Of a stretch of 64,000 nt of DNA, positions 4,711-60,160 are shown one piece after another; position 1 is the stretch's first letter; each line of letters begins with the position of its first letter. The position numbers and the translations under genes are program-made. Origin of the DNA: Spiroplasma endosymbiont of Polydrusus cervinus (GTDB taxonomy: Bacteria; Bacillota_I; Bacilli_A; Mycoplasmatales; Mycoplasmataceae). The stretch is taken from contig NZ_OZ026469.1 of the NCBI RefSeq assembly GCF_964019755.1, positions 744,001-808,000 of the forward strand. Direction: 5' to 3'. Below the pieces are notes generated by a model. The model did not search any database. It had not been told where the DNA came from and worked only from the letters and a program-made list of their open reading frames with translations.

Positions 4711-4853
4711 TAAACTTTCTCCTCTATTCTACATAATAATTATTATCAGCATTCACACTTATTTTATCATAAAAAGGAATAGTTAGTATAGTTATTATAA
4801 TATGGGAACACATATTATTTGAAGAATTAATTGGTCGCATAAAAAAGATTGGT

Positions 4854-4929
4854 GTATACTGTAATACTAAATCATAAAAAGTTAACTAAATTAATAGTTA
4901 ACTTTTTATGATTTAGTATTACAGTATAC
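4854..4929. repeat. Solo type A palindrome between map and secA
   Basis: A 76-bp perfect palindrome: 35-bp arms (starting GTATACTGTAATACTAAATC) around AATTAA. It starts 17 bp after the map stop and could act as a terminator in either direction. The same core, ATCATAAAAAGTTAACTA, recurs at the ends of the IS30-type elements and in other intergenic copies. Confidence 0.85.
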
Positions 4930-4945
4930 AGGTTTTAAAATCCGC

Positions 4946-26085: not shown

Positions 26086-26159
26086 ACTTTACCTCCTAAA
26101 ATATTTAAAATGTTATAATTTATGTGCAATAATTATAACATTTTAAATATTTTAGGAGG

Positions 26160-26310
26160 TATCGGATTAACAGCAACAAATACAACATCATTAATTAGTT
26201 GCGAAAAACCAAATAATAGTGAAAACGGCGAGTAATAAACCAGAACCCAAACCAGAAAAACCACCAGAAAATAGTAATTGAAAGTTAATTGAAGATTGTA
26301 AATTACGCGG
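26160..26310 (+). pseudogene. Lipoprotein 5' remnant inside element B
   Basis: Frame LGxIGLTATNTTSLISC continues from the hairpin arm, a Spiroplasma lipoprotein signal with lipobox LISC but no start codon. It is followed by NNSENGE, a stop and then, in another frame, a PENSNWKLIE motif like that of the prophage lipoprotein. Similar remnants lie in copies A, C and D. Confidence 0.5.
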
Positions 26311-41447: not shown

Positions 41448-41527
41448 TGTAAATTGTAAATACCAAATCACAAAAAGCTAACTAAATTAATAGTTAGCTT
41501 TTTGTGATTTGGTATTTACAATTTACA
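41448..41527. repeat. Solo type A palindrome before the ribosomal cluster
   Basis: An 80-bp perfect palindrome. Compared with other type A copies, both arms carry matching changes: CAC...GCT on the left and AGC...GTG on the right replace CAT...GTT and AAC...ATG. It begins 3 bp after the lipoprotein gene stop (minus strand) and can serve as its terminator. Confidence 0.88.
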
Positions 41528-44735: not shown

Positions 44736-46326
44736 TGTAAATTGTAAATACCAAATCATAAAAAGTTAACTAAATTAATAGTTAACTTTTTTTAAGTTAC
44801 TTATATGAGGTTGAAATTATGCAAATAAAGCAATATTTAATTTTGCGGTCGTTAGTAAAAAGTATGGTAAAGATATTGTTATTAATATTGTCAATAAAAT
44901 TGCAAATGATATTAAAATTAAAAAGTAAAGAATAAATTATCCCGCGTAATTTACAATCTTCAATTAACTTTCAATTACTTCCAACTGGTGGTTGTTGTGG
45001 TTTGGGTTCTGGTTTATTACTCCCCGTTTTCACTATTATTTGGTTTTTCGCAACTAATTAATGATGTTGTACTTGTTGCTGTTAATCCGATTACCTCCTA
45101 AAATATTTAAAATGTTATAATTATTGCACATAAATTATAACATTTTAAATATTTTAGGAGGTAAAGTATGAAAATATGAAAGATTAGATTTTAATGAAAG
45201 AGTAAATTTGGAAAAATTAAAAGATAATGAATTATTTAAAAAGAAAAATGGAACAATTAATATTCGAAAAATTGCTAAGCAAATGAATAGAGATTATAGA
45301 ACTATTTGACAAGAGTTAAATATGTTTGATAATATTAATGATTATAATGCTGCAAAAGCACAAAAAATACATGATAAAAATAAAAAACAATGTCGTAAAT
45401 ATTCAATGTTAAATTCACAAGAATTAAGTCATTTTTCTAATGAATATAATAATTTTGGTCGTTCGCCACAAAATATTATTACTTCGTATGAATTACAATA
45501 TAATGTAAAATTTGGTGTATGTTTTAAAACAATGTATAAATATATTAAATTAGGTTATTTTAATTTAAAAAAAGAAATGTTATATTTTAAAAATAAAAAA
45601 AGAAAAACAAAAAATGGGGAACAAAATGATAATCGTGGAAAATTAATTAATATTAGAGATTATAAGCAATTTTTAAATGATTATGGAAATGATTTAAGTT
45701 TTAGTGTAATTTGAGAAATGGATACTCTTGATTGTGGTAATTTTTATTTGTTAGTTTTAGTAAATCGTAAATCAAAAATACTTTTTTTATCATATTTTAT
45801 TTAGTAAAAAGGCAAGTATTATATTAACAATTTTAATGAAAATGATTAAACAAATTGGTATTAGTAAATTTAGTTGTATTTTAACCGATAGAGGAAAAGA
45901 ATTTTATAGATGAAAATCAATAGAAAAACATTTTAAAATAAGAGTTTATTTTTGTGATCCTGGTAAACCTCGCCAGAAAGCATTAGTAGAAAGAATAAAT
46001 AGAGATATAAGGCGTTTATTGGCTCAAAATGAGCCATTAATTAATATTCGTAGTAGATTAAAATCTATTTTAGATATATTAAATACCACAATTATACCTT
46101 GCTTGGAAAATTTTACATCAAGACAATAATTTAAAAAAATTTTTTTAAATTAAATTAGTGTTTGTTAAGATTAGTAAAATTTATTTTTTGTTGTGTTTAA
46201 TTTTATAATTTTAAAAATAAATATTAAAAACAATATTTTTAATTTACTATTCTTTGTGATTATTGTTTTTTATTTTTAATTTGCTATAATTTTATTAACT
46301 TTTTATGATTTAGTTTTACAATATAC
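44736..46326 (+). mobile_element. IS30-type composite element, copy C (both ends present)
   Basis: The most complete copy: type A palindrome at the left end (44736-44800), phage-like ORF remnant, reversed lipoprotein remnant, fold-back hairpin (about 45102-45162), transposase pseudogene and type B end (about 46190-46326, finishing GTTTTACAATATAC). The left flank 44709-44735 holds an inverted scrap of the transposase (CATATTTTATTTAGT) joined to a type A end, as seen at the deletion junction of copy E, so insertions are nested here. Confidence 0.75.
45169..46129 (+). pseudogene. IS30-type transposase, copy C
   Basis: The best preserved coding region: HTH INIRKIAKQMNRDYR, DDE motifs WEMDTLDCGN, CILTDRGKEF and KALVERINRD. 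Defects: the start region (AGTATGAAAATATG) puts the ATG out of frame, TTTTTTT at about 45783 is one T longer than in copy B and shifts the frame, so it is not translatable as one protein. It ends SRQ-TAA at 46127. Confidence 0.8.
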
Positions 46327-46345
46327 AAAGATTTTAAATTTATGG

Positions 46346-46557: not shown

Positions 46558-46568
46558 TCTATAAAAGA

Positions 46569-46741
46569 AATATGTATATTGTAAAACTAAATCATAAAAA
46601 GTTAATAAAATTATAGCAAATTAAAAATAAAAAACAATAATCACAAAAAATAGTAAATTAAAAATATTGTTTTTAATATTTATTTTTAATTTGCTATAAT
46701 TTTATTAACTTTTTATGATTTAGTTTTACAATATACATATT
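46569..46741. repeat. Solo type B palindrome
   Basis: A 173-bp unit with outer arms of about 60 bp that are near-perfect complements (starting AAATATGTATATTGTAAAAC) around a 45-bp centre. It lies 12 bp after tRNA-Ala and ends at the stop of the next minus-strand gene, so it may terminate both. The arms equal the type B end of copy C. Confidence 0.88.
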
Positions 46742-47848
46742 TTATTCCACAATTGGGTCTAAATCCTCAATATCAAGAGCTCCTCTGAGTTTTTCTTTTT
46801 TAATATTTTTTTTCTCTAATTTTGCTTGCATTTTTGCTGCTTTTAATTCTTCTTTCATTAACCGCTTGGTTTCTTTTTTCGAAGTTTTAGCATTACGGTT
46901 AAAATCATTATCATTAACAAAATTAAAGAATTCATCATCATCAGCTACATTAATTGAGTTTGCCGCTTGTTGTGGTTGCTCCGTTTGTTGTTTTTGCTGA
47001 TTAAGAAAAACGGGATCTGTAACAAAAACTTGTTCATAATATGATTGATTATTTGGTGGTTGTTCCTGATTTCCTTGTTCATAACTTGAATAACTTGATC
47101 TTATCGGTTCCTCTGAACTCACCACTGAATTATTATTATATTGTTGTTCAACCATTGGTTCATCAAAAGGTACATTCCCTTGATTTTGGTTCATACCTGA
47201 CCCATAATTATATTCTTCCGTTGGGAACTGATTTATTTGTTCTTCATCCCTACGTTCTAAAAACCCATTATTTGCTTCTGGTGAAATGCTTGGTTCTTTT
47301 CTTAAGTCATTATTTTTTTTGGTATGCAAATCACTATTTGATTGAAAATTGTTATTAAAATGATCATGATAATTTGAATTATTATGGCCACAAGGACAAG
47401 CGCCACCACAATTATTATTTTGTGGTTCGTAGTAATTTGGATACATCCCTGGATACATCCCGCCTTGGCACATTCCATTTCCCATTGATGGATATGGTGG
47501 CATCATTGAATAAAATGGATATGGTGGCATCATTGGATAAAATGGATACGGTTTTGGCACTACTTGCTGAGCTGGAGCTGGTTGTTGAATAAAAAAGACT
47601 TGTGGTGAAGCACCATTAGTTGTCGGATGCGGGGTAATAATCTGTTGCGGATTGGTTGCATATTGAGGTGCCGAAGCCCCTGTTAAATAACTATTTGGAT
47701 AAGACGGAATCGGCGATAATGTTAAAGTGCTGATGAATACTTCTGCATCACGACGACTTCTAAAAAGTGCAACTTCACTATTAGTATCATGTGACTTTAC
47801 TAAATATCCTTCTTCATTTGGTAAGATATAAAAGCCATTATTATTCAT
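46742..47848 (-). CDS. Pro/Gln/Asn-rich hypothetical protein
   Basis: The 368-aa product has no signal peptide or TM segment. The N-terminal 45 residues form a small domain (GFYILPNEEGYLVKSHDT, RRDAEVFISTL). A Pro/Met/Tyr-rich repeat follows (PYPFYPMMPPYPFYSMM, residues about 100-125), a CGGACPCGHNN cluster, then Gln/Asn-rich linkers and a strongly charged C-terminal helix (KKETKRLMKEELKAAKM). The composition recalls cytoskeletal or adhesion-related proteins of Mollicutes, but no family is recognised. The 47849-48007 gap is AT-rich promoter-type sequence. Confidence 0.7.
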   Translation of the reverse strand: MNNNGFYILPNEEGYLVKSHDTNSEVALFRSRRDAEVFISTLTLSPIPSYPNSYLTGASAPQYATNPQQIITPHPTTNGASPQVFFIQQPAPAQQVVPKPYPFYPMMPPYPFYSMMPPYPSMGNGMCQGGMYPGMYPNYYEPQNNNCGGACPCGHNNSNYHDHFNNNFQSNSDLHTKKNNDLRKEPSISPEANNGFLERRDEEQINQFPTEEYNYGSGMNQNQGNVPFDEPMVEQQYNNNSVVSSEEPIRSSYSSYEQGNQEQPPNNQSYYEQVFVTDPVFLNQQKQQTEQPQQAANSINVADDDEFFNFVNDNDFNRNAKTSKKETKRLMKEELKAAKMQAKLEKKNIKKEKLRGALDIEDLDPIVE

Positions 47849-48007: not shown

Positions 48008-48346
48008 TTAAATTGAATCTAACGTTTCTAATCGTTCTAAAAATCTATTGATAGCTTTATTTTGATCCTGTTTTCATCATTGCAACGACGATATTCATTC
48101 AAATTTTCAACCATTACTTTCTAAAATTGATTGTCGTCAAATATCACAAGTCCGGTCTGCTGGTTTTGAATGATAAGTAGGACCATCACATTCAATTGCT
48201 AAAATAAAATTATTGGTTGTTTTATCTTTAATTCATAAGTCAATTGAAAAATCGGATTGCTTTACTTGTGGAATAATATCATATTTTTTATCATTTAAAT
48301 GTAATTTTAATTTATCATAAATTTCTCGTTCTAAAATACTATCCAT
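48008..48346 (-). pseudogene. C-terminal endonuclease-like domain of a lost helicase
   Basis: 112 codons from an ATG that has no Shine-Dalgarno and an in-frame stop just upstream. The sequence resembles the VSR/DUF559-like nuclease domain at the end of large superfamily-1 helicases: SDFSIDLWI, LAIECDGPTYHS (acidic pair E, D) and a final SLQWWKQDQ. The body of the gene is missing and a type A palindrome lies at the break. It could in principle be translated alone, but I regard it as a remnant. Confidence 0.6.
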
Positions 48347-48360
48347 TTGTTGATAATGAT

Positions 48361-48453
48361 TATTATCTGTAAATTGTAAATACTAAATCATAAAAAGTTA
48401 ACTAAACTAATAGTTAACTTTTTATGATTTAGTATTTACAATTTACAGATAAT
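48361..48453. repeat. Solo type A palindrome at the 3' end of truA
   Basis: A 93-bp palindrome (core 48366-48448). The truA reading frame runs into its right arm and stops at a TAA inside it (48429-48431), giving a C-terminus SVNCKY from palindrome sequence. The other side joins the helicase remnant. Confidence 0.88.
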
Positions 48454-49199
48454 CTTTTTTTAATATTTAATTTTTTTAAACATAAACCATATGGTTTTGC
48501 ACAGTATTTTGTTGTTCCCCCCGCTGGTGGATGTTTTAAAACCATTTTTAATTCCATTAAACTAACTTGTCCTCAATAACATGCCAAAATATTTTGTGTT
48601 AACATCCTAATTTGATAACGAATAAAACTTGGTCCCACAAAATGAATTTCTATTTTTTTGGCTCTATTTCGTTTAACTCAAATTTTTTTAATTGTTCGTT
48701 GCGTTGCAATATTTTCGTCCGCTTTAACACTGGTAAAAAAAGAAAAATTATGAGTCCCAACAAAAACTTGACTAATTTTATGCAATTTTTTCACATCTAG
48801 CAAACGATCAACTTTTAATTCATAACGATGATTAAAAAGATCATATGTTCGATCATTAATCGTATAAACATATTCTTTGACTTTGGCTGTCCGAACACTA
48901 AAATTCTCGGAAACAACTTGGTATTTTTTAATATTAATATTTGGTGGTAAACTTTTACCAACTATCTTAATAAAAAAACCTAAATGACGTGGTTGAAACG
49001 GTAGCTTCACTAATACCTTTTGATCACAAGCATGAACCCCTGCGTCGGTTTTACTAGCTCCTAAGGTTCAAATTTTTTGCTGACAAATGCCAAAAAATGC
49101 TTTCTCTAATTCAAATTGAATTGTTCGAGCATTTTTTTGTTTAACTCAACCGCTATAATCATAACCATCATATTCAATACTTAATAATAAATATAACAT
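48429..49199 (-). CDS. truA: tRNA pseudouridine(38-40) synthase TruA
   Basis: 256 aa. Catalytic Asp in SKTDAGVHA (about residue 52), substrate region VGTHNFSFFTS, and FVGPSFIRYQIRMLT near the C-terminus. ATG at 49199 after AGGATGATA, overlapping the ecfT stop. The last six residues come from a type A palindrome, so the native C-terminus has been replaced, but the catalytic body is intact. Confidence 0.92.
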
Positions 49200-50164
49200 T
49201 ATCATCCTAAAACAAATTCATCAATATGAAGAATCCGAATACGTAAAAATCCTGTTGAAATTTTGCCAAATGTTCAACCACTTGGTCCTCAATGTCAAAC
49301 TTCATAAAAGGTTTCATATTGACCCATTGTTACTGATTGCGCAATAATAACACTGGCAATCCCAACCCCAAAAATAAATAATAAGATATCCGTAAAATGA
49401 ATGCGATAATGACGATACCGTGTTCGTTTCGCCTGGGGGTCATATCCTCGAGCATCCATTGCATAAGCTAAATCTTCTGCTTTTTGAAAGGCTGATACTA
49501 ATAATGGAATAATCAAAGCTGTTGTTGATTTAATTTTGTCTTTAAAGTGTCCATTCTTAAAATCAACTCCTCGTGAAGCTTGGGCCTTCATAATTCGTCC
49601 TGCTTCTTCAATTAATGTTGGGATCATACGTAAAGCAATTGAAATAATTGTTGATAAAATATGAACTGGGAAGCGCACTAATTTTAACGGACTTAATAAA
49701 TCTTCTAAGGCTAATGTTAAATCCAATGGGCGGGTTGTAGCAGTTAAAATTGTCGTAATTAAAATCATTAAATAAATCCGACACGCCATATAAAGGGCAT
49801 TAAAAAAGGCTTTTTCGGAAAAAGCAAATCAACTTTTCCCCCCAGCGGCAACTGGGCCAGTTGCCGCTGCTTTGCCCCCTCAATGTCAACCAATAAAACC
49901 ATCCGTGACTAAAAAACAATTAATTAATAATAAAATAATAAACATAAATAAAATTGGTTTTAACAATGCTCGTAATAATCTTGGTCGTAATTTCGCTAAA
50001 AAGAACAAAATAAAAATCGTTACCCCTAAAATAGCATAACCAGTAAAACCAGTTGAAAAAAAGATTGATACCATTAATGATAACAACATAAATAATTTTA
50101 CCCGTGGATCCATTCTATGAATTGGGGAATTATAAGCAATATAACGTCCAAATGATAAGCGCAT
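49199..50164 (-). CDS. ecfT: ECF transporter T component
   Basis: The 321-aa membrane scaffold of the energy-coupling-factor transporter. About six hydrophobic segments; two coupling motifs, AQASRG and AMDARG, in the cytoplasmic region between helices. It starts 4 nt after ecfA2 and is coupled to truA. It works with S components for vitamins, which are not in the window. Several Trp are TGA. Confidence 0.92.
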
Positions 50165-56826: not shown

Positions 56827-56873
56827 AATTAAAATCGTCTACTTTCTATTCCTTTTTTATTAATTAATACTTT

Positions 56874-58446
56874 GTATACTGTAAAACTAAATCATAAAAA
56901 GTTAATGAAATTATAACAAATTAAAAATAAAAAACAATAATCACAAAAAATATTAAATTAAAAATATTGTTTTTAATATTTATTTTTAAAATTATAAAAT
57001 TAAACACAACAAAAAATAAATTTTACTAATCTTAACAAACACTAATTTAATTTAAAAAAATTTTTTTAAAATATTGTCTTGATGTAAAATTTTCCAAGCA
57101 AGGTCTAATTGTGGTATTTAATATATCTAAAATAGATTTTAATCTACTACGAATATTAATTAATGGCTCATTTTAACCCAAATCAACGCCTTATATCTCT
57201 ATTTATTCTTTCTACTAATGCTTTCTGGCAAAGTTTACCAAGATCACAAAAATAAACTCTTATTTTAAAGTGTTTTTCTATTGTTTTTCATCTATAAAAT
57301 TCTTTTCCTCTATCGGTTAAAATACAACTAAATTTATTAATACTTACTAAACAGGGTGCAGTCTATATAACACTTGCCTTTTTACTAAATAAAATATGAT
57401 AAAAAAGTATTTTTGATTTACGATTTACTAAAACTAACAAATAAAAATTACCACAATCAAGAGTATCCATTTCTCAAATTCCACTAAAACTTAAATCATT
57501 TCCATAATCATTTAAAAATTGCTTATAATCTCTAATATTAAGTAATTTTCCACGATTATCATTTTGTTCCCCATTTTTTGTTTTTCTTTTTTTATTTTTA
57601 AAATATAACATTTCTTTTTTTAAATTAAAATAACCTAATTTAATATACTTATACATTGTTTTAAAACATACACCAAATTTTACATTATATTGTAATTCAT
57701 ATGAAGTAATAATATTTTGTGGCGAACGACCAAAATTATTATATTCATTAGAAAACTGACTTAATTCTTGTGAATTTAACATTAAATATTTACGACATTT
57801 TTTTATTTTTATCATGTATTTTTTGTGCTTTTGCAGCATTATAATCATTAATATTATCAAACATATTTAACTCTTGCCAAATAGTTCTATAATCTCTATT
57901 CATTTGCTTAGCAATTTTTCGAATATTAATTGTTCCATTTTTCTTTTTAAATAATTCATTATCTTTTAATTTTTCCAAATTTACTCTTTCATTAAAATCT
58001 AATCTTTCATATTTTCATACTTTACCTCCTAAAATATTTAAAATGTTATAATTTATGTGCAATAATTATAACATTTTAAATATTTTAGGAGCAATCGGAT
58101 TAAAAGCAACAAGTACAACATCATTAATTAGTTGCGAAGAACCAAATAATAGTAAAAACGGCGAGTAATAAACCAGAACCCAAACCACAACAACCACCAG
58201 TTGGAAGTAATTGAAAGTTAATTGAAAATTGTAAATTACGCGGGATAATTTATTCTTTACTTTTTAATTTCAATATCATTTGCAATCTTATTGACAGTAT
58301 TAATAATAATATCTTTACCATACTTTTTCACTAAGACCGCAAAATTAAATATTGCTTTATTTGCATAATTTCAACCTCCTATAATTAACTTAAAAAGTTA
58401 ACTAAATTAATAGTTAACTTTTTATGATTTAGTATTTACAATTTAC
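56874..58446 (-). mobile_element. IS30-type composite element, copy D
   Basis: Type B end at 56874 (GTATACTG), transposase pseudogene, fold-back hairpin (about 58024-58092), lipoprotein remnant (58093-58230), phage-like ORF remnant and type A palindrome (about 58390-58446). Both ends are present, reversed compared with copy C. Confidence 0.75.
57047..58018 (-). pseudogene. IS30-type transposase, copy D
   Basis: Same family as copies A-C. The start ATG is out of frame, as in copy C. Around 57350-57375 a stretch of the DDE domain is replaced by unrelated sequence (CAGGGTGCAGTCTATA), and the region near 57180 is shifted. Not translatable as one protein. Confidence 0.8.
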
Positions 58447-58644
58447 ACTTATTTACATTTTATTTCTTAAATGAATTTATACATTTTTTCCTTAATAAAT
58501 CTAATCTCTCTAAAAAATGTAATCTTAATTATTATACATTACTATTAAAAAAATATCCAAATAATCGGAAAAATATCATATTACTATTATAGTAATACAC
58601 TTTTTAAGTTAAAATAATAATATTTAAAAGGATGTGAAAAAAGA

Positions 58645-59100: not shown

Positions 59101-59203
59101 TTTATATTTTATTTTTGTATACTGTAAAACTAAATCATAAAAAGTTAATAAAATTATAACAAATTAAAAATAAAAAAACAATAATCACAAAAAATAGTAA
59201 ATT

Positions 59204-59556: not shown

Positions 59557-59558
59557 TA

Positions 59559-59638
59559 TGTAAATTGTAAATACCAAATCATAAAAAGTTAACTATTAAT
59601 TTAGTTAACTTTTTATGATTTGGTATTTACAATTTACA
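59559..59638. repeat. Type A palindrome inside copy E
   Basis: An 80-bp perfect palindrome. Its right arm supplies an ATG (59615) in frame with the topA remnant that follows. Confidence 0.85.
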
Positions 59639-60160
59639 TTTAATGAATTATTTGGGATTCAACATTTCATTAAACCCCCAAGTCGTTATTCGGAAGCTAA
59701 ATTAATTAAAACGTTAGAAGAAATAGGGGTTGGACGACCATCAACTTATACGCCAATTATGCGAACATTAAAAGATCGTGGTTATATTATTGTAGAAAAT
59801 AAAGCAATTAAAGCAGCAATGGAATTAATGGAAGAAATTCCCGTTGAAAAAGGTGGGATTGAATGTCTTGAATATGGAAATGATTTAGTTTATCGTTATG
59901 GAAAATATGGGAAATTTATTGCTTGCTCAGGATTTCCAAAATGTCGTTATATTCATCAAACTGGACCTAAGTTTGGACCTTGTCCTGAATGTGGGGTTGG
60001 GGAGATTATTTTAAAATTTAATAAAAGACGTCAGTGCTTTAAATCTTGTACTAACTATCCAAATTGTCATTATACCGATTCATATAAAGAAGAGAAAACA
60101 GAACAAGAAGAAAATAACAGTGAAAATAACGGATTGTATCGAATTAATTTGGCCGTATAA
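59615..60160 (+). pseudogene. topA: DNA topoisomerase I 3' remnant
   Basis: 181 codons: 10 from the palindrome, then TopA sequence PPSRYSEAKLIKTLEEIG-VGRPSTYTPI, a jump of about 100 residues relative to full TopA, then the C-terminal zinc fingers with CSGFPKC, CPECG and CTNYPNC. The catalytic Tyr and TOPRIM domains are missing. It is a remnant; a functional topA would have to be elsewhere. Confidence 0.75.

Follow-up and report, generated by a model that had tools for sequence, protein, structure and literature searches.

The truA locus of this Spiroplasma endosymbiont of Polydrusus cervinus raises the question of how a perfect palindrome came to lie between two gene ends that differ from those of relatives, and whether the palindrome changed them. 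In the 64,000-nt stretch of DNA analysed here (the window), it separates truA from a short helicase-like reading frame; the earlier note had proposed that it provides the truA stop codon and truncates the neighbouring gene, that insertion and deletion at the repeat rebuilt both gene ends, and that relatives without it should share neither the TruA C-terminus nor the short helicase fragment. The palindrome itself was recognized correctly, except that its start coordinate was one base off (48362, not 48361): two arms of 43 nt each (48362-48404 and 48411-48453), 100% complementary, enclose the 6-nt loop AACTAA, giving a feature of 48362..48453 that, like the other palindromes below, has no strand. 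At its center is a hairpin core, AAAAAGTTAACTA-N6-TAGTTAACTTTTT (48392..48423); the terminal repeat TGTAAATTGTAAATACTAAATCAT, the core and the inverted terminal repeat together form a candidate folded-back provirus left end (48368..48447), and the outermost 6 nt on each side (GATAAT/ATTATC) are additional symmetric bases beyond the provirus end repeat. The predicted RNA fold of the 141 nt around the palindrome has an energy of -56.9 kcal/mol, whereas shuffled sequences average -14.1 (z -16.3); none of 200 shuffles reached the observed value.

On the helicase side, a 112-aa ORF on the minus strand (48008..48346) matches PF18741 REase_MTES_1575 (1.6e-24) and can be aligned at 72% to the terminal part of a longer frame in the related genome G011, which we take to be a helicase from its motifs; the ORF would be its C-terminal, endonuclease-like tail, with the body deleted. 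The gene order in G011 is truA, the helicase in two frames, and then the next gene; the 3,255 bp between truA and the helicase tail of G011 have no counterpart in the window, where the palindrome replaces them. Homology to G011 ends at 48449 on the truA side and restarts at 48361, the palindrome edge, on the helicase side. The proposed truncation of the helicase is thus borne out, most of the gene being absent, with the size of the loss measured against G011 alone. In G009 the same position is occupied by a phage-like ORF block, a plectrovirus by our own reading, and by a frame that contains the helicase tail. Since both close homologues of the tail lie in longer frames, as the earlier note's comparison with relatives had anticipated (595 aa in G011, 180 aa in G009), the 112-aa ORF was rejected as an independent small gene.

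The truA end has a different history. Translated with code 4 (TGA=Trp), truA (48429..49205, minus strand, 258 aa) has a frame-shifted 3' end that enters the right arm of the palindrome; its product ends ...KKRLSVNCKY at a TAA (48429-48431) within that arm, just as the earlier note had read it. TruA terminates in IKY, IIY or ITY plus stop in 12 of the 13 other genus genomes compared and in SVNCKY in none of them, as had been foreseen; the closest of these TruA proteins is only ~81% identical, and therefore no true sister strain is among the compared genomes. The conserved I-K-Y-stop codons are still intact in the window at 48460-48471 (stop at 48460..48462, minus strand), 6 nt short of the palindrome, and have fallen out of frame, since the A-run directly upstream of them has one base fewer than its counterpart in the aligned relatives; translation therefore continues into the palindrome, the source of the next stop. 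The view that the palindrome took the truA stop is thereby contradicted, and of the two gene ends said to be altered at the repeat, the helicase cut stands in comparison with G011 whereas the truA change does not. The new TruA tail goes back to a change in length by one nucleotide ahead of the conserved stop, with the palindrome merely providing the next stop; a sequencing error is a possible alternative source of the shorter A-run. Because the one-base change sits outside the palindrome, two separate events are indicated. An independent case at the same gene was seen in another species, G004 (locus L115, 2345-3360), where TruA is 14 residues longer because a provirus right end occupies its stop; this provirus has a 3-nt repeat, ATT, as read by eye. 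In the window's genome, genes that we presume to be frr, tkt and pgm have open ends within ~2 nt of palindrome starts (L043 ~1000; L068 ~1000; L085 ~970), and the provirus repeat may be the stop codon source for these genes as well.

The truA palindrome is one of a family. Its core occurs at 81 sites in the 1,120,781-bp genome (<=3 mismatches), compared to none for a reversed control pattern in the same genome. When all 81 sites were read, 30 proved to be palindromes, carrying TGTAAATTGTAAATAC.AAATCAT or a variant of this terminal repeat on both flanks of the core, and 51 were of a different type; nearly all of the 50 non-palindromic sites listed have the repeat on one side only, and the opposite side typically runs into an AGGAGG-like sequence and an ATG. 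These 51 sites are mostly left ends of SpV1-type plectrovirus proviruses; in an ordinary left end, the terminal repeat (TGTA...) precedes a hairpin whose stem measures 13 nt. The DNA adjoining the left end is 86-87% identical to the SpV1-type plectroviruses SkV1 and C74 over ~175 nt, and the first small ORF aligns with them as well; the IS30-like transposase ORF aligns with R8A2B (70.7%, in three pieces over the transposase region); all three phages are Vespertiliovirus. In the SkV1 record, the two phage ends abut as ACA/TGT. The provirus copies are short, 263 to 1,592 nt among the nine whose two ends were read and whose left end is ordinary, in contrast to 7.8-8.3 kb for the phages. In the window they include a degraded plectrovirus provirus with an ordinary left-end hairpin and an IS30-like transposase remnant (44736..46327, plus strand) and the degraded provirus E4 (56873..58447, minus strand), a near-clean insertion with the 3-nt direct repeat AAG whose flanks are separated by only 2 and 3 nt in G010 and G011. 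Because the one-sided sites align with plectroviruses and E4 is a provirus insertion, the palindrome appears to be the left end of an SpV1-type provirus joined to its own inverse, with the provirus body gone.

This palindromic form of the left end, present at 30 sites, was found in the window's genome only. The core itself occurs in five of the 13 other genus genomes, and nine core sites read in relatives (L016-L024) each turned out to be an ordinary left end, the stem measuring 13-14 nt; the core extended by seven bases per side (<=3 mismatches), a pattern that would overlook palindromes built on different terminal repeats, matched in none of the 13, and the earlier note's premise that relatives lack the repeat agrees with this. 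Palindrome patterns were not found in the genome-contig and viral-contig collections, from which the window's own genome is evidently absent, and the palindrome with its near surroundings (141 nt) had no match in the phage collection at E 1e-5. In the plasmid collection, five of six matching records align solely with the neighboring ecfT gene; in the sixth, Spiroplasma kunkelii pSKU205, 60% of the palindrome is matched at 87.5%, and the pSKU205 site is an ordinary left end.

The best explanation for the conversion of a left end into a palindrome is probably fold-back template switching, independent of RecA, at the hairpin of the provirus end, accompanied by deletion. During replication, the new strand would fold at the left-end hairpin, copy the terminal repeat and a few bases of flanking DNA back outward, and then land elsewhere downstream; the outcome would be a perfect palindrome and the loss of the provirus body together with the DNA up to the landing point. 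At the truA locus, such an event would have removed most of the helicase gene; later arm-to-arm copying may maintain the symmetry, and the TruA tail would have changed separately, by the one-nucleotide shift in the A-run. Of the insertion and deletion proposed in the earlier note, the deletion thus survives; insertion is too simple, since the palindrome appears to have formed in place from a provirus end. We infer the replication steps, their order and the former provirus at the truA site from these patterns; as a counterpoint to fold-back deletion at truA, the helicase of G011 is itself split in two frames.

The symmetry of the arms is the first line of evidence. Over 29 palindromes, a single arm-versus-arm mismatch was counted, compared to 65 expected on random re-pairing (minimum 35 in 5,000 permutations); among 25 palindromes whose arms measure 37 nt, 22 positions deviate from the consensus, 21 of them in both arms, whereas all nine deviations in the stems at 50 further core sites are one-sided. 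Most of the two-sided changes are located in the terminal repeat, and copying at birth therefore explains much of the two-sidedness; these changes could have been copied when the palindrome formed instead of being corrected later. Within the 13-nt stem alone, the 29 palindromes have two two-sided departures and one one-sided departure, and mismatches number 1 in 377 compared to 9 in 650 at the other sites (p 0.10); later arm-to-arm correction is thinly indicated by these few changes. A further palindrome, at L149, was read and stands outside the counts of 25, 28 and 29. Two left ends with stems lengthened to 20 nt (L052 and L094), one of them with a mismatch, are read as half-way states.

The symmetry also extends past the terminal repeat into the flanking DNA, by a total of 45 nt over 28 palindromes compared to 15 expected, a sum that none of 20,000 permutations reached; palindrome 12 (L061), whose repeat boundary is uncertain, was excluded from the second of the flank tests, and with it included the sum is 61 against 16. 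At the ends of nine provirus copies whose left end is ordinary, including one copy with a doubtful end pairing, the corresponding symmetry is 0 nt (Mann-Whitney p 0.0025). MITEs and solo IS ends are short, gene-free and made of two inverted terminal repeats, a description that the palindromes share. As an alternative to fold-back copying, the palindromes could thus be tiny, MITE-like mobile elements that consist of a pair of provirus terminal repeats, are mobilized by the provirus transposase and delete adjacent DNA; the TGTA terminal repeat at both palindrome ends is consistent with this explanation, which we nevertheless consider unlikely. Transposition does not lead one to expect symmetry beyond the terminal repeat, and in crossing the repeat boundary and changing their two arms together, the palindromes differ from MITEs and solo IS ends.

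The palindrome margins bear on the same alternative. No 3-nt direct repeat flanks any of 28 palindromes (chance alone would give 0.9), again unlike MITEs and solo IS ends with their target duplication; adjacent deletions made by a transposase leave no target repeat, however, a point that counts for a MITE-like element. Among 17 end pairs, some of which are not true elements, a 3-nt direct repeat was found in two, E4 (AAG) and the element at 59583 (AAA), the latter with a palindromic left end that fits mobility. Provirus interior lies at or near the palindrome edge in 11 of 58 flanks, two of the 11 being the same stretch, which argues against a freestanding element. Some junctions are internal to the provirus (E3 positions 1058, 1174/1175 and 1546) and others lie in host DNA. 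In two palindrome pairs, both members have an identical or almost identical junction within the provirus (E3 1058; 1174/1175), and some copies may therefore have moved after forming; the sharing of one internal junction by two unrelated loci, 59583 and L099, likewise speaks for mobility. These two copies with the common 1058 junction differ by one change that is present in both arms, suggesting continuing arm-to-arm correction if both descend from one event.

Eight of the 30 palindromes were compared with relatives, and none of them is a clean insertion, contrary to what a MITE-like element would lead one to expect. Three replace DNA: two sites, including truA, lack 1.1-3.3 kb, and at a third (palindrome 21) the replaced DNA is ~50 nt long and includes the beginning of the next gene. 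At the palindrome 41448..41527, four relatives carry ~1.1-1.4 kb (1,150 bp in G010, 1,378 bp in G012, 1,168 bp in G011 and 1,095 bp in G005) where the window has only the palindrome; this region includes a 154-155-aa ORF, rlmH by position and family, at full length in three of the four and as a fragment in G012. RlmH (PF02590) was matched neither in the window's genome nor in G008, and its matches in G009 and G012 are broken. At the other five sites (palindromes 0, 17, 22, 23 and 24), homology stops at or near the palindrome (43-64 nt before it for palindrome 0) and the other flank is not adjacent in four stretches each, with one distant G012 piece for palindrome 24; these sites show a broken gene order that fits an older rearrangement as well as deletion. 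The palindrome 4853..4930, between what we presume to be secA and map, has flanks that are non-adjacent in the stretches of four relatives. The palindrome 59558..59639, the left end of a shortened provirus, abuts and is fused to a C-terminal tail (59615-60160) that we take to be topA-like; around it, homology with the compared relatives' stretches ends near 59115. At another locus (L079, 1618-1633), ~1.1 kb of G005, G010 and G011 are absent and the junction has no palindrome, and other deletion routes therefore exist.

A role in transcription would offer a different reason for these palindromes: they could be kept as putative two-way terminators at gene ends, their origin being secondary. The core layout of A-tract, stem and T-tract suits this function, and 17 of 29 palindromes have a frame of >=95 aa with its 3' end within 40 nt (two of the 17 being the provirus transposase), while a 5' side lies equally close at five of 29, three of these five being cut genes as we read them; these counts take the longest frame on each palindrome side. 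Yet the stem is AT-rich, gene ends are also where damage is tolerated, and a gap of 0 may represent a cut gene, so that retention as terminators is quite improbable as the main explanation. Least of all, recombination between two opposite proviruses, which share the core in both directions because this 32-nt sequence is nearly its own inverse, and whose ends are abundant, might have deleted the intervening DNA and left two facing left ends, but this is highly improbable, as at least 28 of 29 identical arms have a probability of 3.5e-19 if the copies were independent (a random pair of left ends is identical in 240 of 1,225 cases), symmetry into the flanking DNA is unexplained, and RecA was not detected.

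The fold-back explanation does not require RecA, and RecA (PF00154) had no match in the window's genome in a search whose control was found in 14 of 14 genomes. The absence of RecA alone is insufficient, because G004 and G008 are also without a RecA match and yet have no match to the palindrome pattern. As a broader and tentative possibility, to which we give slightly less than even weight, provirus ends in a genome without detectable RecA could act as fold-back switches, repeatedly becoming self-correcting palindromes and deleting the provirus together with its neighbors, with viral clearance and gene loss across the genome as the result.

Among known systems, quasipalindrome mutation by template switching, as described in PMC8794818 and also the subject of PMC7202029, resembles these palindromes in that an imperfect inverted repeat becomes perfect and changes appear in both arms; compared to that account, the symmetry here grows from 13 to ~37 or more nt at ~30 provirus ends, and neighboring DNA is lost at some sites. 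The fold-back inverted duplications of human genomes described in PMC3907307 share the short inverted homology, the fold-back copying, the loss adjacent to the junction and the loop as a spacer; the median length of their sequenced spacers is 3,428 bp, on linear chromosomes (PMC3907307), whereas the loop here has 6 nt and the genome is bacterial. Within Spiroplasma, inverted-repeat regions of S. citri plasmids are described in PMC2386487, and citri-clade genomes, according to PMC3563533 and PMC5091035, have abundant plectrovirus DNA and strong rearrangement. Palindromes of the present kind are not described in the titles and abstract beginnings of the listed open-licence papers on Spiroplasma, plectrovirus, quasipalindromes and RecA-independent junctions. 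The paradox noted in PMC3563533, that rearrangement occurred in S. citri and S. melliferum despite a truncated recA, would become testable if fold-back at provirus ends deletes DNA without RecA. Each palindrome would then be a scar whose parent hairpin can be predicted, and the set of palindromes may chart the DNA that the genome has lost; the paired-arm changes would provide a natural measure of the rate of template switching that keeps hairpins symmetric in a bacterium.

Two further kinds of palindrome were observed. One consists of two inverted provirus right ends, with 73-nt arms (95%) at 46568..46742 of the window; at locus L059 (2440-2812) a right-end palindrome has arms of at least 186 nt (183 matching) and flanks that, by eye, are apparently symmetric for ~13 nt past the repeat. 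The other is a second family, CTCCTAAAATATTTAAAATGTTATAATT, 86-100% complementary, at 827-892, 26090-26161, 45091-45164 and 58012-58105 of the window; its copy at 45091 sits just upstream of the provirus transposase ORF.
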